In this document: in pieces, positions 249 to 19,800 of the stretch
Layout: each line of letters begins with the position of its first letter
Numbering within the stretch: the stretch's first letter is position 1
Origin: a virus
Strand: one strand, 5' to 3'
Virus record (IMG/VR): IMGVR_UViG_3300037497_000094
Location: 1 to 29,313 of that record
DNA length: 29,313 bases
Notes under the pieces: model-generated
The model's input: the letters and a program-made list of their open reading frames with translations, nothing else
What the model was told of the DNA's origin: nothing
Database searches by the model: none
Position numbers and translations under genes: made by a program

Positions 249-1121
249 TTATCCTCCATACACTCGAACACACTCACGCATCGTGTTATCATGGATCTCA
301 AGGACTTTTGGAATCGATCCATCACGCTCTGTCTGGTAACCACCAGCCAAATTCCAGGCAACGGGCACACCCTTTGTCTTAAAGGCTTCAAAAACAATCG
401 CATCACGAAGACGTAGTTGTTCTGTTGTCAACCAACCACCATAAGGATCATTGATGTGTGGGTCTGCCCCAGCTTGATACAACACGACATCACAGTCCGA
501 CATCCAGTCTAAGATGCCCGGTAGTTGTGAGAAGAAATCATCAACTTGGCTCACGTCAACAAACGTTCCTCCACCTGTGAAGTGTTTGATCCACTTGGAC
601 GCCTTTAACTTATGAATGATGTTATCCGTGCCGTTACCATAGTGCATGTCAAGGTCGAGAATCCCAACCCGTGAAGCACCTTCTTTTTGCAAGACGAGCG
701 CCGCAACCATCAAACCGTTAAACGTACAAAATCCCTGAGGGGTATGATGTTCAGCGTGATGAAAACCAGAGCATGGAGCACAAGCAACGGCTCTTGTTTT
801 GATCGCATGTCGAGCCGCAGATAACATCGCACCAGAAGTAAATGGTAGTGACATAGCAACGTCTGGCGAACGGTTTCCAAATCCGTTGTTGCATCGCCCC
901 GCCAACACATCTTCTACGTATGTCCTGTCGTGCGCGAGCGTGAGTTCATCAACCGTAACCGGCTCAGGTTCTTTGACATCGATCACAAATTTCTCTTGCC
1001 ATGATTCAACAACTTTTGCTGGCTTGGCCGCGCTGGGCGAAAGACTTTGGCTGTCAGCCACCATCTTGGGTGTATAGAAAACAACGATAGGTTTGATAAC
1101 TGTTGACACCATCTTTAACAT
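249..1121 (-). CDS. HDAC-family zinc-dependent deacetylase (histone deacetylase / acetylpolyamine amidohydrolase fold)
   Basis: A 290-residue protein with the full catalytic set of the arginase/HDAC-fold deacetylases. The His dyad is H121-H122 in GFHHAEHH; GFCTFN follows at 130-135; the zinc ligands are D158 and H160 in ILDLDMHYGNGT and D220 in YQAGADPHINDP; the transition-state Tyr is Y262 in NLAGGY. Such enzymes remove acetyl groups from lysines, polyamines or related small molecules; which of these applies cannot be told. Length is close to the usual catalytic core, with no extra domain and no signal peptide. The start is ATG at 1121 or 1112; neither has a strong ribosome site. It lies upstream of thyX in the same direction and just after the group of small unknown proteins, so it is expressed with the nucleotide-metabolism genes. 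Fold and chemistry are secure; the biological target is unknown. Confidence 0.88.
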   Translation of the reverse strand: MLKMVSTVIKPIVVFYTPKMVADSQSLSPSAAKPAKVVESWQEKFVIDVKEPEPVTVDELTLAHDRTYVEDVLAGRCNNGFGNRSPDVAMSLPFTSGAMLSAARHAIKTRAVACAPCSGFHHAEHHTPQGFCTFNGLMVAALVLQKEGASRVGILDLDMHYGNGTDNIIHKLKASKWIKHFTGGGTFVDVSQVDDFFSQLPGILDWMSDCDVVLYQAGADPHINDPYGGWLTTEQLRLRDAIVFEAFKTKGVPVAWNLAGGYQTERDGSIPKVLEIHDNTMRECVRVYGG

Positions 1122-1145: not shown

Positions 1146-1475
1146 TCACTGTTTAAGCAACTGTTCACGTGCCCTACCCAAAGCAGCAGCTTTGAAGATC
1201 TCTGACCTTGAAAACAGGTCTCTGAGACGATCGTAATCGTGTTCACGTAACAATGTCGTATCGAACTCATACCTCTGTGGATTACAACGACCAAACACAT
1301 ACGAAACAGCGATCCAGATCCTTCGATACCAAGGCCAGACGTCATTTAACCGTGTTTCCATCCACATCTCACCATCAGTCGGATCAAGCGAAAACCTGAT
1401 CACATGATCTGGATGGTCACACTGACACTCTACATACACATGTTCGTTATCGAACGATTGCATGAAACATAACAT
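1146..1475 (-). CDS. Conserved-looking phage hypothetical protein, 109 aa
   Basis: I do not recognise a named family. The N-terminal half has the pair VECQCDHPDH (Cys and His spaced CxCxxxxH, a possible metal site or just a beta hairpin). Residues around 36-65 are aromatic-rich (MWMETRLNDVWPWYRRIWIA), followed by VSYVFGR, giving a short amphipathic stretch. The pattern resembles small hypothetical proteins I recall from T4-like and marine phages, but I cannot name a function. The ATG at 1475 is chosen because nothing longer is open; an in-frame ATG at 1463 is equally possible and neither has a clear ribosome site. It sits between the small N-terminal-motif proteins and the deacetylase. Confidence 0.7.
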   Translation of the reverse strand: MLCFMQSFDNEHVYVECQCDHPDHVIRFSLDPTDGEMWMETRLNDVWPWYRRIWIAVSYVFGRCNPQRYEFDTTLLREHDYDRLRDLFSRSEIFKAAALGRAREQLLKQ

Positions 1476-1496: not shown

Positions 1497-1763
1497 TTAC
1501 ACTTTTTGGATGAACGACCAGATCTGATCCTCAAGCAAGTCATTGGCTTTTTCTTCAAGTTCATCCAACACTTCATTTGCAGCAGCGATCGCTGATCGAC
1601 TGTCGATATCAGTGACCGATTTGTTCATCAAGATGAAACGCTTGATGTGTTGCCTGATCTCATCAACATATCGCTCTGTCGCTTGACGTAGGACAAACGT
1701 CGGAACACCACGAAGGTATTCTTCACGGATAACACGCCTGACGTCACCAACACGTACCTTCAT
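1497..1763 (-). CDS. Small protein with candidate capsid-targeting N-terminus, 88 aa
   Basis: Function unknown. The N-terminus MKVRVGDVRRVIREEY is basic and amphipathic and contains I12-R13-E14, the (I/L)-x-E pattern cut by T4-type prohead proteases. The rest is predicted mostly helical by eye, with an acidic, coiled-coil-like C-terminal half (NEVLDELEEKANDLLEDQ). It starts three bases after the stop of the preceding gene, which has a related N-terminus, so the two are surely co-translated. The ribosome site is weak (AAAAG), which fits coupling. It could be a packaged internal protein, a scaffold-core component or another virion protein; this is inference from the motif only. Confidence 0.75.
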   Translation of the reverse strand: MKVRVGDVRRVIREEYLRGVPTFVLRQATERYVDEIRQHIKRFILMNKSVTDIDSRSAIAAANEVLDELEEKANDLLEDQIWSFIQKV

Positions 1764-1766
1764 TGA

Positions 1767-2135
1767 TCAAGCTTTTCGATAGTATTCGCCTTCAATCAAC
1801 TTGTTTTCAATCTTATAGATCAGGTTCTGGACCTCGTTATACAACTCTTCACTTGCTTCATCAACCTGATATTCCCAAGCTTCAACACCTGTCAACTCGA
1901 TAGATGGATCATCTGCACCCGCAAGATCATGCCAAGAATTACCAACCACCATACAAAGATTGTCGATGGCGTCAATGGGTCTACGTCCTGCAATACCCGC
2001 GCCCAACGTTTCAACGGTTGGTTTTTTTTCAACGGGGGGGGTCCACAATGGTGAACCAGGCTGGCGTCCCTCAATGGCTTCCTTGATTAGACTTCTAACT
2101 TGACGCTTATCAAGCTTAACAACTTTATTCTTCAT
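1767..2135 (-). CDS. Small protein with candidate capsid-targeting N-terminus, 122 aa
   Basis: Function unknown. The N-terminal peptide has a Lys/Arg-rich helix ending in VRSLIKEA, with I17-K18-E19 followed by Ala, an ideal T4 gp21-type cleavage sequence. A flexible Pro-rich linker follows (about residues 25-40), then a mixed region and an acidic helical C-terminus. The linker is encoded by two homopolymer runs, eight A and eight C on the coding strand (window 2022-2029 and 2034-2041), which could slip. Start ATG at 2135 overlaps the upstream stop as ATGA and has a good AAGGTGG ribosome site. It is third of four adjacent genes sharing this N-terminal design. Confidence 0.78.
   Translation of the reverse strand: MKNKVVKLDKRQVRSLIKEAIEGRQPGSPLWTPPVEKKPTVETLGAGIAGRRPIDAIDNLCMVVGNSWHDLAGADDPSIELTGVEAWEYQVDEASEELYNEVQNLIYKIENKLIEGEYYRKA
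2022..2041. repeat. Paired homopolymer runs T8 and G8 in coding sequence
   Basis: Eight T (2022-2029) and eight G (2034-2041) lie four bases apart, on the coding strand eight C and eight A, within the gene at 1767-2135. Such runs can slip during replication or sequencing. The intact frame encodes a Pro-Pro-Val-Glu-Lys-Lys linker. Confidence 0.6.
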
Positions 2136-2476
2136 GATCCACCTTTTATCTGTTTATGTGCCTGGACCCACGCCGTCTTCACGGTATCGTTGATCTTAGC
2201 AACGACCTGCTCAACCGCGGCATTTGCGACTTTTTCAATCTGCTGATAAGCTGCGTCATCGAACTCTCGTGTCTCAGAGTTATACTTGTCTGCGCTCGCC
2301 AATGTCAAGTTCATCACAAGTCCACTCTTAAATGAGTTTCCAATATCTTTCATCGCCGAAGCAACGCCCTTTTTGTCAACTGGATCTTGAACAGGTTGGT
2401 TGTTCTTAAACACGGACGGTGAGACAGCAACCTCACGTAGCAACTTTCTTAATACGCTATATCTGATAAACATCAT
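2132..2476 (-). CDS. Small protein with candidate capsid-targeting N-terminus, 114 aa
   Basis: Function unknown. It begins MMFIRYSVLRKLLREV, where L13-R14-E15 fits the (I/L)-x-E prohead protease rule, and RYSVLRKLLRE closely parallels RYGVLKVAIRE of the protein at 26584-26877. A short Pro/Asn linker is followed by a soluble helical body. The start is ATG at 2476 or the next ATG at 2473: a GGGAAGG ribosome site lies 3 or 6 bases upstream, so a GTG further upstream at 2488 is less likely. The stop of the previous gene overlaps as TAATG. Its end overlaps the next gene by ATGA. The neighbours share the same architecture. Confidence 0.77.
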   Translation of the reverse strand: MMFIRYSVLRKLLREVAVSPSVFKNNQPVQDPVDKKGVASAMKDIGNSFKSGLVMNLTLASADKYNSETREFDDAAYQQIEKVANAAVEQVVAKINDTVKTAWVQAHKQIKGGS

Positions 2477-2964
2477 TAACCTTCCCACTCTTCATTTGCC
2501 GGATCGACGATTTTCATCAAAACTCGTGCAGCATTCTTTGCATACTCATCAGCGGCATGCATTACACTGTTATGAAATTCCATCTCTGCATCTTGCATGT
2601 CATCATTGCTCGATCCATCGAGAATAGATTGAACTTCTTTTAAGGAAATCCATCCCAGGCCATATTTTTGTGTCTCTTTATATAGCCTATCGACGACATA
2701 ACGATGAAGCTTCATATTCATCTTGAAGATTGATTCATCAAACATGTCAATGTTCTCTTCAACGAGATCTGTCATCGCTTTTTCAAGCACGTTGACATTG
2801 ACTCGACCTTCCATCCCACGAAGAGAATCATGATCAACGTCTGCTTCATTCAAAGAAGACAATTGAAGGTTTTCTTCACGAGAACGACGAGCTCGCGATG
2901 CGAGCTCCATCTCTTCTTTGATCACTTGGTTTATGAATGATACTTGACGTCCAGAAAGTTTCAT
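2476..2964 (-). CDS. Small protein with candidate capsid-targeting N-terminus, 162 aa
   Basis: Function unknown. It begins MKLSGRQVSFINQVIKEEM; I15-K16-E17 matches the (I/L)-x-E cleavage pattern. Further on there is a Ser/Arg/Glu-rich stretch and then a helical region with many acidic residues (for example VEENIDMFDESIF). I place the start at ATG 2964 because AGAAGG lies about eight bases before it; a GTG at 2973 would put the ribosome site inside the coding region. It is the first gene of the four-gene group and follows nrdJ after a 53-base gap, which holds nothing I can recognise. Confidence 0.77.
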   Translation of the reverse strand: MKLSGRQVSFINQVIKEEMELASRARRSREENLQLSSLNEADVDHDSLRGMEGRVNVNVLEKAMTDLVEENIDMFDESIFKMNMKLHRYVVDRLYKETQKYGLGWISLKEVQSILDGSSNDDMQDAEMEFHNSVMHAADEYAKNAARVLMKIVDPANEEWEG

Positions 2965-3017: not shown

Positions 3018-5498
3018 TCATCCACACTTGCTTGCACCACAATCACCACACGTAGAGCACCCTTGTTGATAGTATACATTTGTGCTACCACACTGGGCAC
3101 ATGTCTTTTCTGTGGTCACTTTTGTACCGTCGGGTATGTAGCTCTTGCTCAAGACACGAGCAATGACGTTTGAGAATGACGTGATGTCACTATGCTTATC
3201 TTTCTTTAATTGTTCACAGAGATACTGCACTGGGACGCCATGACGTAAAGCTAACGATATCGTCCTTGTGAATGCACCATACACTGGACTGTCAAACAGA
3301 TTGACGATGTCCTTAAACAGCAACACATCATCGTCTCCAATTGGAATCTTCAGGTTATACGTTGCAATTCCATCTTTATTTTTGCCGTTCTTGATGAGGG
3401 TCCCTTCTTTTGCTTTTCTTGGGACTTCAACGTGTTCCTGTAGACCTGCAAAGATCTCATATGGATGACCGTTCAACAAACCTATCAAGACAAGGTACGT
3501 TTCTCCTTGAACTGTTGCTCGTTGTATGTCGCAGGGAAGCTCACGTGGACGTTTTGGTGCGTGGGTCTCAACAATCATGATAGGTTGACCACGTGAATCA
3601 GATTCTTTCACGATCACAGCATCACGTGAACCTATCCTATAGATCGTTACGCCCTTACAACCGGTTTCCCAAGCGTGCATACACAGCTTTTCTACGGTTT
3701 CAGTCGTTACATCTTCTGGCAGGTTTGTTGTGTTTGAGACGCTGTGACACAACCACTTTTGGGCTGCTGCTTGAATGTCTATCTTCTTTAACCAGTCGAT
3801 GCTTTCAACCGTTGAACCAAAATAGGGTGACTTCGATTCATCATGCTCACCAGTAACCTCTGACCACTTTGCTACACCGTGATGAGAGATATCATAATGT
3901 TGCCACTTATCACCTGACTTATCAACTTCGTCAACGCGAGCTTGTTTATCGCTTGGGTTGACTTTTCTCTTTCTTCTTGCCTTTAGAAATAACACTGGTT
4001 CACACCCAGACGTTGTTTGTGTCAATAATGACGTAGATCCGGCTGGCGCAGTTGTTGTGTTAGCGATGTTTCGCCTACCGTGTTTTTCATACATCATCCT
4101 CAATTCACGATCTTCAGACATGATTTGTTCAATGAACACGTGATTCTTTTCAACCTCGAGCGAAAAGATCGGAAATGGACCTCGATCACGAGCCATCATA
4201 ACTGACGATCTATACGAATTAAGCGCTAACGCCTTGTAAACTTCTTCAGTGAGTTTAATGCTATCGTTAGAGCCATACTGAAGATTGAGATATGCAAACG
4301 TATCACCAAGTGCAGTTATTCCCAAACCAGTTCGTCGACCGTCTATGGCAACTTTTTTGATCTTTTTCCATAGGTTTAATTCAACAGTTTTGATGTCTTC
4401 TGGTTCTGGATCGTGCTCAATTTTATTGATGATTTTATTGATCGCTTCTAACTCAAGATCAACGAGATCGTCCATCAATTTTTGTGCTTTTTGTACAACA
4501 TTTCCATATCGTTGATAATCAAATCTTGCGCTTGTTGTAAATGGATCAATCACAAACTTTGACAAATTTATCAACAATAACCGGCAACTATCCGCCGGTG
4601 GTAGTGGCAGTTCGCCGCAAGGATTTGTTGATGATGTTTTAAAACCAAACTTAGCATATGCATCAGCAGGTGAACGATCGATGACTTGATCCCAAAACAG
4701 CATACCTGGTTCAGAACAATCACGCATCGCTTTTACGATGTTTTGCCAGACTTCACGTGCATTGACCATCTTTGAAACAATGTGTTTGACATCTTTATCA
4801 ACTGGGAACCTTTGTTCATACTCTTTGTTGTCTTTTACTGCCTGCATGAATTCATTCGTCATGCGAACAGACACGTTGGCACCAGTTACTTTTTTACGAT
4901 CACGTTTTATGTTTGCGAACGTCAACACGTCTGGGTGATGAACAGAGATCGTCAACATCAAAGCCCCTCTACGACCCTCTTGTGCAACTTCACGACACGA
5001 ATTTGAATATCGTTCCATGAAGATGCCGCTGCCGTCTGTCGTCCTCGCGGCATTTGCTGCTGCAAGACCCTTTGGTCGGATCGTAGAGATGTCAAACCCA
5101 ACGCCCCCTCGGCGTTTCATGATCTGCACCTGTTCTTGGTCGGCCTTCATTATGCCACCATATGAATCATAGGGTGACTCAATGACAAAACAGTTTGATA
5201 ACGACTGAACCTGAAACTTGTTTCCGATCGCCGACATTGGACCGCCTTGCGGCACAACCTGCCAATCAGATAACATCTCATAGATCTCATCTTCTGACAA
5301 CGGGTTAGGATAGTTTGCTTCTATACGAGCAAACTCACGAGCTAACCGACGGTGCATGTCAGTTGGCGTCTGTTCATACAGGTTTCCTTCAAGATCTTGA
5401 AGAGCGTACTTTCCCGAAAAAACATCCGCGGCGAGCTCGTCGCCTTTAAAATAATTTATCGAAGCACTCCGTACGTGATCATACGAATACGTCCTCAT
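3018..5498 (-). CDS. nrdJ: Adenosylcobalamin-dependent (class II) ribonucleotide reductase
   Basis: Reduces ribonucleotides to deoxyribonucleotides using a B12-derived radical. 826 residues. The active-site residues are C103 (SLSNCFV), the N292-P-C294-G-E296 motif with the radical Cys C294, and C305 in PADSCRLLLIN. The 11-residue spacing between the radical Cys and the second redox Cys is that of class II enzymes such as the Thermotoga one, not the longer spacing of class I. GRRNIANTTTAPAGS is the phosphate-binding region. The C-terminus carries a Cys-rich zinc-ribbon-like tail, CAQCG...GCSTCGDCGASKCG, whose last Cys pair would reduce the active site. No NrdB-like small subunit is seen. ATG at 5498 follows the previous stop directly and has GGAGAA upstream. 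It depends on host cobalamin. Confidence 0.93.
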   Translation of the reverse strand: MRTYSYDHVRSASINYFKGDELAADVFSGKYALQDLEGNLYEQTPTDMHRRLAREFARIEANYPNPLSEDEIYEMLSDWQVVPQGGPMSAIGNKFQVQSLSNCFVIESPYDSYGGIMKADQEQVQIMKRRGGVGFDISTIRPKGLAAANAARTTDGSGIFMERYSNSCREVAQEGRRGALMLTISVHHPDVLTFANIKRDRKKVTGANVSVRMTNEFMQAVKDNKEYEQRFPVDKDVKHIVSKMVNAREVWQNIVKAMRDCSEPGMLFWDQVIDRSPADAYAKFGFKTSSTNPCGELPLPPADSCRLLLINLSKFVIDPFTTSARFDYQRYGNVVQKAQKLMDDLVDLELEAINKIINKIEHDPEPEDIKTVELNLWKKIKKVAIDGRRTGLGITALGDTFAYLNLQYGSNDSIKLTEEVYKALALNSYRSSVMMARDRGPFPIFSLEVEKNHVFIEQIMSEDRELRMMYEKHGRRNIANTTTAPAGSTSLLTQTTSGCEPVLFLKARRKRKVNPSDKQARVDEVDKSGDKWQHYDISHHGVAKWSEVTGEHDESKSPYFGSTVESIDWLKKIDIQAAAQKWLCHSVSNTTNLPEDVTTETVEKLCMHAWETGCKGVTIYRIGSRDAVIVKESDSRGQPIMIVETHAPKRPRELPCDIQRATVQGETYLVLIGLLNGHPYEIFAGLQEHVEVPRKAKEGTLIKNGKNKDGIATYNLKIPIGDDDVLLFKDIVNLFDSPVYGAFTRTISLALRHGVPVQYLCEQLKKDKHSDITSFSNVIARVLSKSYIPDGTKVTTEKTCAQCGSTNVYYQQGCSTCGDCGASKCG

Positions 5499-8046: not shown

Positions 8047-8568
8047 TCAGGCTTTTCGACCATTTTCAGGCATGTCTAAGATCATGATTCTACCAAACGT
8101 CACCTGTGGAGCACCTTCTTCAATATCAAATGTTGCCACGATCTTTACGTAATCATTCGTTTGAAGGCTATCTTCATAAACCACAAATCCCCCACCACAC
8201 TTGAGGACACCAATTTGTCGAGAAGCTATGTCAAGTTGTCCTTCAATTGGATCTACTGGAGAAAACAACACTGTCGCCTGAAGAACACAACATAAATCGG
8301 GTGAAGCATAAACTTTCACCTCATGTCGTATAGCTCTACCGTTCTTACTAAACGTAAGCTCTTGTAGTTTGTTAACACAATCGACCATCGCTTCAATGAG
8401 CGTTTCATACCATTCACGAACAGTTCCGGTAAACCTTGGTCCATGTTGTTCACCTTCTTTTAACTTACCTTTTGCCTTGAGATCTTTGACAATAGCATCC
8501 ATCACCTCACCGGTGTTCTTGTTGACAAATTTACCGGGAAACCGCGACCAATACATCGTTATGTCCAT
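8047..8568 (-). CDS. Hypothetical protein, 173 aa, in the replication cluster
   Basis: I do not recognise a family. It begins MDITMYWSRFPGKFVN and contains about 50 polar residues followed by a mostly beta-like C-terminal half with alternating hydrophobics (VKVYASPDLCCVLQATVLF; ASRQIGVLKCGGGFVVYED). No catalytic motif, membrane segment or signal peptide is visible. I chose ATG 8568 because GAGGTGA lies directly upstream and overlaps the dUTPase stop; the longer reading from 8601 would place that site inside the gene. Its position between dUTPase and the 5'-3' exonuclease suggests a replication-phase or nucleotide-related role, which is guilt by association only. Confidence 0.75.
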   Translation of the reverse strand: MDITMYWSRFPGKFVNKNTGEVMDAIVKDLKAKGKLKEGEQHGPRFTGTVREWYETLIEAMVDCVNKLQELTFSKNGRAIRHEVKVYASPDLCCVLQATVLFSPVDPIEGQLDIASRQIGVLKCGGGFVVYEDSLQTNDYVKIVATFDIEEGAPQVTFGRIMILDMPENGRKA

Positions 8569-8572
8569 GATA

Positions 8573-9007
8573 TCACCTCTTTCCTGTCGAACCAAATCCA
8601 CCGACCGACCTCAACGTTTCAGACAGGCTCTCAACGATCTCAAACGTAGCACGAGAAACTGGTGCAAAGACGAGTTGGGCGATGCGATCGCCCTCACAAA
8701 TCGTTACAGGATTCATTCCCAAGTTGATCAACAATACTTTGACTTCACCCCGAAAGTCACTGTCAATCGTGCCCGGAGCGTTCAGCACCGTCAGTCCATC
8801 TCTAACTGCTAAGCCAGACCGAGGCCTGACCTGACACTCGTGGCCCTCAGGAAGCTCGAGATAAATTCCCGTTGAGATTAGGTGGCGTTCACCAGGTCTG
8901 AGGATACAATATTCTGTTGAACAGACATCAGCGCCAGCCGAACCAGGCGTCTGATACGTTGGGATGTTCTTTGTGTACTCTAGTTTGACGTTGATAACAT
9001 CATTCAT
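8573..9007 (-). CDS. dut: dUTP pyrophosphatase (trimeric dUTPase)
   Basis: Hydrolyses dUTP to dUMP and pyrophosphate, keeping uracil out of DNA and supplying dUMP to thymidylate synthase. 144 residues, the usual trimeric length, with all five motifs: PGSAGADV (21-28), RPRSGLA (61-67), LNAPGTIDSDFRGEV (75-89; catalytic D82), GDRIAQLVF (106-114) and the C-terminal RSVGGFGSTG (133-142), which closes over the active site. Start ATG 9007 has GAGGTG seven bases upstream, inside the end of the recombinase gene, which it overlaps by eight bases. Cytosolic, working with NrdJ and ThyX encoded downstream. Confidence 0.96.
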   Translation of the reverse strand: MNDVINVKLEYTKNIPTYQTPGSAGADVCSTEYCILRPGERHLISTGIYLELPEGHECQVRPRSGLAVRDGLTVLNAPGTIDSDFRGEVKVLLINLGMNPVTICEGDRIAQLVFAPVSRATFEIVESLSETLRSVGGFGSTGKR

Positions 9008-11245: not shown

Positions 11246-11479
11246 TTAGCGTCTATGGCGTTTTTTGTTCTTTTTACGTCCAAGCTTGTCAGGATCCATT
11301 CCCAGCGGAGCAACATAACCCGCGACAGATCCACAACCTGAAAACTCATTGACTTCTTCAGTTCCTTCATCATCTTTATCCTCGTCCGAATCCGTTGGTG
11401 ACAACAGCTGTTGCGGGACCCTTGCAAGGTGCGCTTCTGCCAGTGCCAATTTTATGTACCTCACGAGCAAGTTGCTCAT
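11246..11479 (-). CDS. Small protein with candidate capsid-targeting N-terminus, 77 aa
   Basis: Function unknown. The N-terminus MSNLLVRYIKLALAEAHL is an amphipathic helix in which L13-A14-E15 followed by Ala fits the (I/L)-x-E prohead protease rule, as in the other small proteins of this window. A highly acidic middle (DSDEDKDDEGTEEVNEF) leads to SGCGSVAGYVAPLG, a Gly-rich motif followed by a very basic C-terminus (KLGRKKNKKRHRR). The SG-G-VAG-PLG pattern is one I recall from small phage proteins of unknown role. The ATG at 11479 has no evident ribosome site; the 56 bases upstream are AT-rich. Confidence 0.68.
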   Translation of the reverse strand: MSNLLVRYIKLALAEAHLARVPQQLLSPTDSDEDKDDEGTEEVNEFSGCGSVAGYVAPLGMDPDKLGRKKNKKRHRR

Positions 11480-13691: not shown

Positions 13692-16574
13692 CTATTTCTT
13701 GGGATCATCAGTTGACATGTTTGTCAGCCAATCGATGATGTTTGGAGCGCCTTCAAACACGCCGTAAGCATCTGCAAAACCAAACGTCCACTGTGTTTCA
13801 AACTTACCTGGAGTGAAGACGTGGTTCAGTGCGGTGCAGATATAGAGGTTGTCCAACGACGTACCCGTGTTAAAGTCTAAAAAGTACATCTGTGCCAACG
13901 TTGCGAGTGGGCAACCCAACGTCGACATCGTCATCTGAGCAGGGATCACCCGTAAAGGTATCCCACCCTCGCCAGACCCGTTTGGTTGTGCGGTATTTCT
14001 GATGGAATTGCTACGTTGCATGTTCACAGTGCTCAACAATGGTTCAGCCTTAGATGACAAATTTGCCGCCGACACAATCGTTCCATTTGCACCATACGTG
14101 ATCGTTGGTACGAACTTTGAAACGAGGTCTTTTACCTGTCGACCGTTGACAAATTCATTGAACTGAACACCACTTTTCTTATCATCTGCGTCTTTTTGAA
14201 TTGCGTTTGATGTGCCGACAACCGCAAGATATTTTTTGAGCTCCGGGCTTATGTTAGAAATTGAATTTTGTTGCAATTTTTCCTTAGCATAATCCGTTGA
14301 TGGAACTTGAACAAAACCACGACCGTCTGACGATCTCAACATCTGCGACGCGGCAAGGTGAGGGTTTACTTGTTTGTCATAGATATGAATTCTCATGATC
14401 CGACGAAGGTTTTTTTCCTTTATGTCTGACGAAAACTGTGAGGCTCCATCTTTTGCAGAATACGATAGCCTCATCAAGATATCACTGGTACCCTCATCAT
14501 TAGCTTTTTCATGTGATGTCTCGATGTACATCTCGATGTGAGGTTTTTTAAACGAACCATATTGCGTCATCAAGTTTGATTGTGCGGATTCAAATTCTTT
14601 TTGTTTGTTTTTGCTGACTTGTGCATCTTTATTTTTCGGATCGTATGGTTCATAGTATTGACGAAGTCCATAGCCAATTGCGCGGTTATCAAGTACTTGT
14701 GCATTGATGACAAGCTGCAAGAATTCCTCCAATGTGACCTTTTCTCCACCTCGACTGACAACGTGATCACGATATTGATCTTGAAACGTTGCAAGGTCAA
14801 CTGGAAAATCAGCAATGCTATGACCACTGACGGGTCCACACTGTTCGTTCAACGAATAAAAGAACACCTGAAGTTCGTCGACAACATTTGTCGACACTAT
14901 TGACTGGACTGCAAACACAGAAAACAACTTACCAAACGACACAACATTCTTCTTAAAATCGGTGACTTTTGTCTGAGGTTGCTCATGAAATTTTTTGATC
15001 TCAGCGATCAACGGGCTTTCTGCTTTTTCTTTTTTCTTTGATTCGTCCACACAAAAAGGATCTGGACCTACTATCAATTCATCAAATTTTTTCTTTATTG
15101 TGTCGGTGACCCTTGTCTGAATTCGTTCTTTGAGACCAAACTTCGTCTTGTCGTTATCTTGCTTGTAAATTTCCTTCAATTCACTGATCAACTGTTTGAC
15201 AATTGCATTATCTGCTTTCGTGTTGTTCTTAAACTGTGCCTCGAGTTTGTTGATCGTCTCCAACGCTTCGTTTGCTTTCATGTTTGGAAATTCACCGACC
15301 TCGGCAGCATCTAACACCTGAAAGACCCTCACTTCTTTGTTGACACCCTCGGGCGAATCTAATTTTAGCTGTTTTCTGTGTTTTGCGATCGACTCGCCGA
15401 CTCGCTTTAAACGCTCAATTGTGTGCGCTGCGTCACCAATAGTGTCAGACACTTTGAGGTTACGAAGCTCAGAAAGTCCTTTTGTCGCAAGTTCTAGCGT
15501 TATGACAACCTGACCAACTTGGTCAAAGCTAAAGCTAGAGTTAACCAAACCATACGCTTCTCGAGCTAACATCGTGTTATTGATGTACTCAAAATAAGGG
15601 TTGTTATTTGATGTTGGGGCGCGCCAACCATATGTCAGCCAAACTGTCGTATTTGAATACGATTGTGGTCTGATCAGATCGCTGATCTCTGCAAGACGAG
15701 ACCTATCATGTAACTTAATGACGAGTGACGCTTTTTTATATGTCATTATACCGACCGTTGGAGTCACCTTTATGTTCAATGACTCGATGGACGCAAACGG
15801 TCGAAAAGGATCTAAGACCTCTGTGTAACGAACACCACCGGTTCCAATGTCAATGTTGGGCAATGGGTTCACAAGAGTCTGTGGACTTGTGAACATCTCC
15901 ATCCCTGCAAAACTTAGCTCTTTATTATCTTTAACAAGTGTCGTACCGTCAAGAATTGCCTTGTTTGGACCGTCTTGTGGTTTATTGACACCGCCCAACA
16001 AAAAACGCAACTGACCAGTTTGTTGAACATGATCGCTTGGGTTACGCAACGTTTGAAACTCAACATCAAGGTATGCTGACATCTGTGACAAGACGATCGA
16101 TGGCATCGAATTCAAAAACAACTCGATCCGACGCGTGTTACGCATTGCCGGATGAAAAAACGGTGAGCGTGATGACATCAACATCACATCAAAGTCTTTG
16201 GGAATAGAAAAAGCCTTTCCTATCACCTCATTGATCCCGCTGATCTTTTTTATGCCATCTTTTGTCTGATACGACTTTACGTCATCTGACACATCAGACG
16301 TAAATCCTAACGTACTGTAGAGGTCAAAATACTTGTTTGCGTCATTAACTTGATCACTGCTTAACTTTTTAACGTTATCATTCAAGTGTTGCAAAAAATT
16401 TTTGACTGACCAAACACCCCTAGCATCATTTTCTAACAACGTCGAATATGCTGAATAAAGGCTATTGAACTTGTCGGCTGGACCACCGAGATTCAACCTG
16501 ACCTTTCCAGCAAGATCTGCCGGCGTTGTCATGTTAAAGATCTGTTCTAATTTCGTAAATTCAGCTTCAGCCAT
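13692..16574 (-). CDS. Large virion structural protein, probably baseplate, 960 aa
   Basis: I cannot name a specific T4 counterpart. The N-terminal third is soluble and mixed; the region around residues 390-480 is Lys/Glu-rich and helical. The C-terminal stretch near 890-945 contains AQMYFLDFNTGTSLDNLY followed by LNHVFTPGKFETQW and FADAYGVFE, a pattern I recall from large baseplate-associated proteins of jumbo myoviruses, where it resembles hub or gp27/gpD-like domains. No enzyme motif or membrane segment is visible. ATG 16574 follows the LysM-type wedge gene after four bases, with GGGTGA close upstream. Its place at the end of the tape measure-baseplate series supports a baseplate role; hub protein is a guess. 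Confidence 0.68.
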   Translation of the reverse strand: MAEAEFTKLEQIFNMTTPADLAGKVRLNLGGPADKFNSLYSAYSTLLENDARGVWSVKNFLQHLNDNVKKLSSDQVNDANKYFDLYSTLGFTSDVSDDVKSYQTKDGIKKISGINEVIGKAFSIPKDFDVMLMSSRSPFFHPAMRNTRRIELFLNSMPSIVLSQMSAYLDVEFQTLRNPSDHVQQTGQLRFLLGGVNKPQDGPNKAILDGTTLVKDNKELSFAGMEMFTSPQTLVNPLPNIDIGTGGVRYTEVLDPFRPFASIESLNIKVTPTVGIMTYKKASLVIKLHDRSRLAEISDLIRPQSYSNTTVWLTYGWRAPTSNNNPYFEYINNTMLAREAYGLVNSSFSFDQVGQVVITLELATKGLSELRNLKVSDTIGDAAHTIERLKRVGESIAKHRKQLKLDSPEGVNKEVRVFQVLDAAEVGEFPNMKANEALETINKLEAQFKNNTKADNAIVKQLISELKEIYKQDNDKTKFGLKERIQTRVTDTIKKKFDELIVGPDPFCVDESKKKEKAESPLIAEIKKFHEQPQTKVTDFKKNVVSFGKLFSVFAVQSIVSTNVVDELQVFFYSLNEQCGPVSGHSIADFPVDLATFQDQYRDHVVSRGGEKVTLEEFLQLVINAQVLDNRAIGYGLRQYYEPYDPKNKDAQVSKNKQKEFESAQSNLMTQYGSFKKPHIEMYIETSHEKANDEGTSDILMRLSYSAKDGASQFSSDIKEKNLRRIMRIHIYDKQVNPHLAASQMLRSSDGRGFVQVPSTDYAKEKLQQNSISNISPELKKYLAVVGTSNAIQKDADDKKSGVQFNEFVNGRQVKDLVSKFVPTITYGANGTIVSAANLSSKAEPLLSTVNMQRSNSIRNTAQPNGSGEGGIPLRVIPAQMTMSTLGCPLATLAQMYFLDFNTGTSLDNLYICTALNHVFTPGKFETQWTFGFADAYGVFEGAPNIIDWLTNMSTDDPKK

Positions 16575-16577
16575 AAA

Positions 16578-16874
16578 TCACCCAATTAAGCTAGCAATAT
16601 CACCAAGAACTGGGACAGTTAACAGCGTTCCGACTGGTACTTGAAGACCCCATCCGACATCGCTCGCGGCTGCCAAAATCCACCAATATCTAGCATCACC
16701 ATACAAGTCACCCGCAAGCGTATCAAGGCGCTCAGCACCCCTGACAACGACTTGTTTTGAGACTTTTATCTGACCACTCGCGATACCTTTTCTGATCGCT
16801 TCTATTGCACGAGACGTTCCAAACTGTGTCCCAAGATTTAACACTGATGTTCTTGCGTATCTGCTAAATGTCAT
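16578..16874 (-). CDS. Baseplate wedge protein with LysM-like domain (T4 gp53-like)
   Basis: 98 residues. The C-terminal half has the LysM-like pattern of gp53-type wedge proteins: GAERLDTLAGDLYGDARYWW, then IAAASDVGWGLQVPVGTLLTVP. In T4, gp53 joins neighbouring baseplate wedges. LysM-like modules also appear in small tail proteins of Mu-type phages, so the exact position in the baseplate is inferred. The N-terminus is short and basic. ATG 16874 has a strong AGGTGAGGT ribosome site six bases upstream, overlapping nothing. It lies between the two largest baseplate-type genes, consistent with assembly in the same structure. Confidence 0.82.
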   Translation of the reverse strand: MTFSRYARTSVLNLGTQFGTSRAIEAIRKGIASGQIKVSKQVVVRGAERLDTLAGDLYGDARYWWILAAASDVGWGLQVPVGTLLTVPVLGDIASLIG

Positions 16875-16887
16875 TTATAGACCTCAC

Positions 16888-19800
16888 CTAGATTTTCTTA
16901 CGAGGTGCTTGACGACTGACGGGATATATTGGTGCCCTATTGATTCCAAAGTGATCAAGTCCAGGTGTGATATCATGGATTGGTGAGAACGTCAACGTCA
17001 CCTTACACATACGAGGTGCAACGCTGTTCACGTCACCTGTTTCCCACGTCACCTTGTCATGCCAATCAAAGTTCATCGTGTCAATGAAACCAGCAAGACC
17101 TTTTCCGCCAGTGTCACGAAATGATTTGGCAACGGCATTTGCATTGTTTCCCGTGTCTTCCATGAAAATGCCCAATTCTTTAGCAAAATCGCTGCTTTCA
17201 ACAGACTCAGCAACGACTTCAAGCGCCTGATCTCGAGTCTTCTGCGTGGGCCGGAGCGTATTCTTCAAAAAAAGATATTCACCGCCAATGTATCTTTGGT
17301 TCAATTTGTTTGCGTTATCATAATCTTGTTTTATATTTGCAATGATATCTTGCAATGATTCAAGCGATTCAGGATCCGTGGTTAATTGAACTTTACCGAT
17401 AACAGACCTCGGATCTGACGGGTTCTCTTTAACGATCTTAATTTCAAAAAAATCAGGGTTTCCAGTTGGCACAAACTGTGACGCAAACTTTGGTTTGGCA
17501 CCCGAGCTTGAAGCACCAGGAGTATTAGGGGGTGATATACTCACACCGCCCGCTGAAGATGCAGGCGCGGCTGGATATGCGTAACCTTGTGAAACTTTAA
17601 ACGTCTTTCCTCCAACTTTTTTAAACTCTTCTAACTTAGCAGGAAGCTTCACATTTATAATTTTCTGATCAAACTGTTTAAAAAACTGTGCAGACTTTAT
17701 CTTGTTCAACGTAAAGTCAGCATTTCCCAATCCAAACAATCGAGCAAGACCAAACCTCGAATAGTTTGAACGTATCAAATCACCCAATCTGATCCTGATC
17801 AATGGAGATGCGCCGATCAGTTGGCTAAACGGTTGAGTGAACACAAAATCTGCAGGATTTTCTCCAGAGACGACTTTCTTACCTGACGTAAACTGTGGGT
17901 AAACGAGCGTGACGAGTTTGTTTATCTTCGTCCACATGTCATCAAAATCTTCACGTGACGTTGATGCAACGTAGAAGCTCATCCCTATCCTTCTTGTTGT
18001 TCCCTTATATAACTTGACTGGTTCGACTCGACCGTATGCATCGACAGAATCATAGTTTGCTGTGTAATCGTCATTCAATGACGCTAAAAACGCATGAAAT
18101 CCGACCATCTCATTCGTTCTCACGTCGTGGAAATAGAAGGGAACGTATTCTGCATCAAACGTTTTTTCCATCTGTTCGACGATCTCGGTGCTGATCCTAA
18201 ATCCGTTCTCTGACTCAGCAGAGATAACCGTTCCACGTGTACGACCATATATGTTTTCACTTGTGGCTTCGGTATCATACGATCCGAGCTTCTTTGCATA
18301 CTTTGAAACAGTGACGATTGGTTGTGAAATCAACATGCTTGCAGGCGCCCTGTTGTTTGCCCACGCAAGTTTGAGAGTGCCTGGTAACCTGTTTCTACCC
18401 GCTGCGTTGAGGTCAAGCTTAGCATCCATCTGAGAGACCCTTGGTTCACCCTCAGAATTTTGATCTACCCACTCAGCCGGTAGTGTTAGGATCGAATCAC
18501 CCAATTGTGCAAAGACGTTGCATGCAGAGATGATCTTTGACGATCGCAATACATCGATCAGTGACAATAATTGCTTTATGACATTGATCGGGTTTCCACC
18601 GATTTTCTTGATCTGATCAATGATCGTCAAAGTGGACCTGATTATTGTTCTCGCAACGATGGTATTGAACCCAGCATCTGGGCCTAACGCCTTCGTGACA
18701 GCACCAGACAATTGTCCCAACACACCACCAGAATCATCGATCCCAAAGAACGCATTTGAACCTTTTTTCAAAGCTGATGCAAATGGGTAATTTGTAGGTT
18801 GAATTCCCAACAAGCTACCGATATCAAGCGACAACAACGCTGTCGCGGCACCTAAGAGTCCGCCTTCATTCTTTTTCTTTGCAACGACGCGAGATCGTCC
18901 AAGCGCATACCGACCGATAACATCACGTGTCGGAGAGACAGGACCCGCCTGAACAAGGCTCAATATGAGGCTCAATCCATCGATCAATAATAACAGACCC
19001 GCAACGAGTGCCGCAGAGAGTGCCGCAGCTCCAAGTGCAGAAACACCCGACCATTGATCTTCTGTGTTATTGAGCGCGCCCCATGATAACGAACCTGGAC
19101 TGATGAACTTTTCGTCTGGTATCACTTCTTCTGTTGTCAGAGTTTCCAACACACTTTTCGCGTTCAATGCGGTATGTGTGACTCTGCTTATCGCTAACTG
19201 AGCAACACCAGGCAACAAGGCTGATGCTTGACCAGGTCCAGAGTTTGCATTGAAGCCCTCATCGCTAGAATTGAGTTCAATGCCCGCTTTCATTGTGAGG
19301 ATTGAGCCAACCTGTGCAAGGCGACCCATCGTAATCGATGGAGCATCTTTGTCATATAGACCCAATTTCTTCTGATCTGTCAATGAAGGATTGAACGTTG
19401 CAGATGGTTGAGACACATCATTTGCATTCCATGCATTCGCAGCGTCAGTAAATCTATTATGACTCATGATCGCAGAAACGTAAGGAGAAACCCTACGAAA
19501 GGTATCTGGATGACCGGCAACAGGACCGACGACTAGAGGTTTATCACCGACCAACGTACCAAGAGGCGAGACAAAAGTACTGTCACCAGATATTCCCGGC
19601 AACAGATCGTTACCGTCAGGTCTTGGCGCTGAAGACTTACCTTTTTTAAATTCTGTCTTTATGACCGACCACGATTCACTCAGCGAGTCTGGTGGTGTTG
19701 GCGCAAATGATGTTGAGTTTGGTGGTGATACACTGAGCGATGATGGATTTCCCCTGTCATCAGACAACCCAATTTCAGTTGCCGTCGGTGGGCTGCCCCT

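Follow-up and report, generated by a model that had tools for sequence, protein, structure and literature searches.

The window analysed here, a viral fragment of 29.3 kb, carries on its minus strand four small adjacent genes, all open, which form an overlapping operon downstream of a ribonucleotide reductase gene. Gene 1 (1497..1763, 88 amino acids) begins with the peptide MKVRVGDVRRVIRE, encoded at 1722-1763, and continues into a two-helix body (YLRGVP...), gene 2 (1767..2135, 122 amino acids) begins with MKNKVVKLDKRQVRSLIKE (2079-2135) and gene 3 (2132..2476, 114 amino acids counted from its ATG) with MMFIRYSVLRKLLRE (2432-2476); the predicted cuts fall before E15, A20 and V16, respectively. 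The N-terminus of gene 4 (2476..2964, 162 amino acids) reads MKLSGRQVSFINQVIKEE. The original prediction held that all four share an N-terminal peptide with an (I/L)-x-E site, and the sites that it quoted, VIRE (I12-E14), LIKE (I17-E19), LLRE (L13-E15) and VIKE (I15-E17) in genes 1 to 4, were confirmed. Comparison of the four genes with PHROGs gave only weak, chance-level matches. Their neighbours are nucleotide-metabolism genes and not a head cluster, which counts against a destination in the prohead; the ip genes of T4 are likewise found outside its head cluster. Gene 1 is adjoined, here and in many other contigs, by an untagged 109-residue ORF (1146-1475, minus strand) similar to PHROG 12660, annotated as a virion structural protein (E 3.7e-10). 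The window also encodes a phage-borne histone-deacetylase-family protein (249-1121, minus strand; PF00850, E 1.3e-31) and a tail protein (13692-16574) for which comparison with phages gave no match.

Relatives were found via RecA, among them records of 340, 369, 216 and 127 kb (G001, G002, G003 and G004), and ORFs were called mechanically, most of these genomes being metagenomic records. In the relatives, a tag of the approximate form M[KR]xxxGxL(R/K)xΦΦxE|(A/E), typically 14-19 residues long, stands at the start of about 8-19 genes per genome record. An initial search with a strict regular expression recovered only a minority of the tags and none in the window, and tblastn of the short tag peptide against phages, with a query that was too short, gave no match. 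A 13-column N-terminal weight matrix converged on (I/L/T/V)(T/S/R)(L/V)Gx L(R/K)x(L/I/F)(I/L)xE|(A/E/V), in which conservation peaks at the Glu (98%, 4.1 bits), with A, E or V after it. I, L or V occupies position -2 (2.4 bits), and conservation is also marked at -5 (2.9 bits), -6 (2.8) and -3 (1.7). Two matrix matches that lack the Glu (G002 166132 and G003 98212) were discounted as ligase-like by eye (KxDG).

When trained on two other genomes, and hence out of sample, the matrix scored genes 1, 2 and 3 at 22.0, 15.5 and 14.3, while no other window ORF rose above 6.0. Gene 4 scored -2.9, and its Glu, retained in contigs L113 and L108 and in the 369-kb genome (where the orthologue is 27% identical), is replaced by Asn in L103 and by Asp in L107. 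Because of this score and the change of the Glu in two of five orthologues, we leave gene 4 as a doubtful or divergent member, so that the sharing proposed for four genes holds for genes 1-3. Orthologues of gene 1 occur in 16 contigs, and tagged orthologues were found for gene 2 in L101-L103 and for gene 3 in the 369-kb genome and L116. In L103 (3192-3991), gene 2 is present as two tandem copies whose bodies have diverged and whose conserved start extends beyond the tag (EAIMSRSPGDPLWSPP).

The bodies behind the tag are, as had been predicted, unrelated to one another: the 56 genes scoring at least 10 correspond to 38 body families by BLASTP, among them NUDIX, a phosphoribosyltransferase domain and DnaJ plus WGR, together with weak kinase-like matches. 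In the gene 1 family (13 sequences), the body motif YL(H/N/R)GVPE(W/F)xLR is conserved and the tags vary, length changes fall at the junction of tag and body, and (I/L/V)xE lies beside that junction in nearly all members; the L114 orthologue has lost the canonical tag and kept VLDE. The predicted structure of gene 1 has a loose helix at residues 5-15, a break and a two-helix body, with a mean pLDDT of about 73-87 per block. The L113 orthologue (3824-4234) contains a Cys-rich, zinc-ribbon-like CxxC...CxxC insertion between tag and body. Of the tagged bodies in the 340-kb phage, two (334855 and 311525) had seemed by eye to be ADP-ribosyltransferases; neither Pfam nor PHROGs supported this, PDB sequences gave no support for 334855 either, and no other contig yielded a relative of either. 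Proteins of about 1035 residues with a tag-like start are encoded in G002 (187200-190313) and G004 (16123-19224; L083); they have a C-terminal domain in common with tagged proteins of other genomes, and the L083 protein contains leucine-rich-variant repeats.

Since the window is itself a genome fragment, with neither protease nor intact head module, and a search of the window with PF03420 gave no match, evidence on the protease and the head was drawn from relatives. Peptidase_S77, the gp21 family, was detected above the Pfam cut-off in the 340-kb (G001 318682-319347), 369-kb and 127-kb relatives, and it is also present in the phages LR756508 (484 kb) and LR756511 (595 kb). In these three relatives it belongs to a T4-like head module, which runs from terminase through a tagged protein, portal, a functionally unassigned protein, protease, a tagged core protein and scaffold to the Gp23 capsid protein and in which tagged genes thus adjoin terminase, portal, protease and scaffold. 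The scan did not call the tagged core protein of this module in the 127-kb record, and the 216-kb relative has tags on a contig from which head genes are absent. In T4, gp23 sheds a 65-residue propeptide, gp21 cutting after L/I-x-E (PMC9026906). The Gp23-type capsid proteins of the three relatives show VLKE in alignment with T4 gp23 FLTE65, and the aligned site is LLKE in the 484-kb phage and IVSE in immuto, a cultured Flavobacterium phage (NC_055915, 34% GC).

Two further ORFs of the window touch on head proteins. A 184-residue ORF among replication genes (8047-8601, minus strand) resembles part of the relatives' Gp23-type major capsid protein (tblastn, 38% identity over 149 residues, E 4e-20) and, judged by this alignment, would be either a displaced capsid-domain paralogue or a fragment. 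A 77-residue protein (11246-11479, minus strand) starts with a different helix, ending LALAE|AHLARVPQQL; its family, widespread in related contigs, shows LLxxYIxxVxE with a (V/L)xE-type junction, then ARVPNQL, an acidic middle and an AGYTAPLG..GRKKNK end. As a lead, it is possibly another class of head-core propeptide.

The genome-wide tag, the unrelated bodies, the head genes that flank it and the relatives' S77 protease and Gp23-like site together support the idea of an address to the prohead. We consider it probable, at about 0.8 from the sequence evidence, that genes 1-3 start with removable prohead-address propeptides similar to the capsid-targeting sequence (CTS) of T4, specific to this lineage and borne by many more proteins than in T4. 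Against this count also the loss of the canonical tag in the L114 orthologue of gene 1, the negative matrix scores of the T4 internal proteins and the lack of a protease and an intact head module in the window fragment. At the level of sequence, the proposal that one removable peptide sends unrelated proteins to the prohead is well supported, with the reservation that gene 4 does not clearly belong to the set. In the mechanism that we propose, the basic amphipathic helix would dock on the prohead core and bring its protein into the assembling head, where the phage Peptidase_S77 would cut after the Glu of (I/L/V)-x-E and free the mature body, which would remain with the DNA in the head and be delivered at infection. 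The predicted cargo would comprise enzyme-like bodies (NUDIX, phosphoribosyltransferase-like, DnaJ plus WGR and kinase-like) as well as core proteins whose genes adjoin that of the protease.

The alternative that fares best, which we nevertheless judge unlikely, is that the tag addresses another place, such as the host membrane, a replication compartment or a common partner, and stays on, the Glu being part of a docking helix. A basic amphipathic helix would suit such a role, and much of the tagged set is encoded at a distance from head genes. This explanation does not account for a Glu that is the top column and is followed by A, E or V, nor for the same ending at the T4-type processing site of the capsid protein; it is also disfavoured by the position of tagged genes next to protease, portal and scaffold, and by the gene 1 family, which keeps the site beside the body despite insertions.

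Much less probable still is a generic likeness, in which N-terminal amphipathic helices contain (I/L)xE by chance. The bare site indeed behaves in this way: across the four related genomes and the window, 225 of 1695 genes have it among their first 20 residues against 212 expected from internal segments, so that it has no statistical weight, and in a set of 28 non-overlapping ORFs from the window, 9 have it within 22 residues. Taken alone, the site rule of the original prediction would consequently not find the cargo, and an extended motif is needed instead; gene 4 may itself be a case of chance likeness. The extended motif, L(R/K)x-hydrophobic-hydrophobic-xE, is about 15 times enriched at N-termini (35 against 2.3 expected). 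At a matrix score of at least 17 there are 53 genes, whereas internal segments of these proteins lead one to expect 0.9, an in-sample figure, and in cross-validation, with two genomes for training and the two others for testing, 22 genes scored at least 12 against 1.2 expected per 556 genes. These internal-segment controls match N-terminal composition inexactly, and the N-termini of other phages give none: the matrix scan found no tag in the tested parts of phiKZ, Bask21, T4, RM378 and Microcystis phage Mel-JY01. For genes 1-3, the enrichment and cross-validation contradict a generic likeness. Last, the position of the tags at gene starts and the tandem copies of gene 2 might suggest a DNA-level element (a promoter or translation signal) or recently copied 5' ends, which we reject as highly improbable because tag codons vary freely at identical residues (agreement 0.31-0.43 against 0.34-0.42 expected from codon usage), so that what is conserved is the peptide and not a DNA motif or a recent copy.

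The tag was also sought in further phages. Without retraining, the matrix identified six genes in immuto, with tagged proteins at 81525, 102294 and 113188 among them, and, in the 200 kb scanned of LR756508, 15 genes against 0.3 expected, which mostly lie no more than about 25 kb from the protease or capsid gene. A matrix-free comparison of N-termini recovered the T4 MKTYQEFIAE pair as positive control; its excess over internal controls was clear in immuto, T4 and LR756508 and modest in the others, which makes pairwise comparison weaker than the matrix. The comparison also revealed a different tag in LR756511, MK(T/S)FxxW(L/M)E, which is close to the T4 CTS and starts about 20 of its proteins (22 against 4.9 expected by regular expression). 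Immuto has two more N-terminal peptides shared by different proteins, MENFDLKKFLVENKLTxNSxLLxE and MKKQILSEQFxRMQxLAGIITES; no virion proteomics of this phage was found in the open-access literature. With at least three different shared N-terminal peptides in one phage, a single tag cannot find every packaged protein, as had been hoped.

These observations suggest a broader scheme, to which we give roughly even odds as a whole, in which phages with T4-type heads would have a general address system, each lineage with its own tag that co-diverges with the scaffold core, and cargo genes would be recruited or exchanged by tag swap. In such a scheme, the lineage tags would be L(R/K)x-hydrophobic-hydrophobic-xE here, MKTFxxWLE in the 595-kb phage and MKTYQEFIAE in T4, and immuto would employ the FDLKKFLVENKLT and RMQxLAGIITE peptides alongside the present tag. 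If this is true, the proteins that an uncultured jumbo phage injects could be predicted by reading its tag. The jumbo-phage proteins that enter the host with the DNA are largely unknown and normally need virion proteomics, and a tag readable from sequence would narrow the predicted head cargo of uncultured phages to a short list open to test, and extend the T4 targeting rule to distant phages. The list would include predicted enzymes that likely act on the host very early. Since the internal proteins of T4 are anti-restriction factors (PMC12373910), the tagged set offers promising candidates in a search for new anti-defence proteins.

Among known systems, the closest likeness is with T4, whose CTS is found on IPI, IPII, IPIII and Alt and is removed by gp21 (PMC9026906, PMC12373910). 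The T4 internal proteins have the leader alone in common, and T-even ip genes have been found by it (PMC12373910). As in T4, a short N-terminal peptide ending in (I/L)xE precedes unrelated bodies in genes 1-3, and the relatives have an S77 protease and a Gp23 head. In the IPIII tag, targeting involves residues 4 and 7, and processing residues 8 and 10 (PMC9026906); when aligned on the Glu, these become positions -6, -3, -2 and 0, all of them conserved columns in the present tag. A Glu-to-Asp change in T4 IPIII allows packaging but leaves the protein uncut. Unlike the 10-residue T4 CTS, however, the present tag is longer and more widely used, and it is not a homologue of MKTYQEFIAE, with T4 IPI-III scoring -0.9 to -5.6 on the matrix. 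LR756511, also an S77/Gp23 phage, resembles the window's group in repeating an N-terminal peptide across different proteins, but its MKTFxxWLE is near the T4 sequence and unlike the window tag.

In the giant Salmonella phage SPN3US and in phiKZ, inner-head proteins carry propeptides that the prohead protease cuts after Glu, and gp53 and gp54 have 15 N-terminal residues in common (PMC5694885). The present tag would likewise form a propeptide ending in Glu on inner-head proteins, but the sites in those phages are AxE or SxE, their propeptides are mostly longer than 100 residues and about eight proteins are processed (PMC5694885); the phiKZ segment tested is without the present tag. The N-terminal capsid targeting signal of P1 DarB is enough to package a reporter, and, in contrast to the tag described here, there is no consensus among Dar proteins (PMC9024508). 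We found no description of the present tag, or of such use on so many proteins, in the open-access literature, the scope of our search. The rule itself is already known in T4, and what appears to be new is the sequence of the tag and the breadth of its use.
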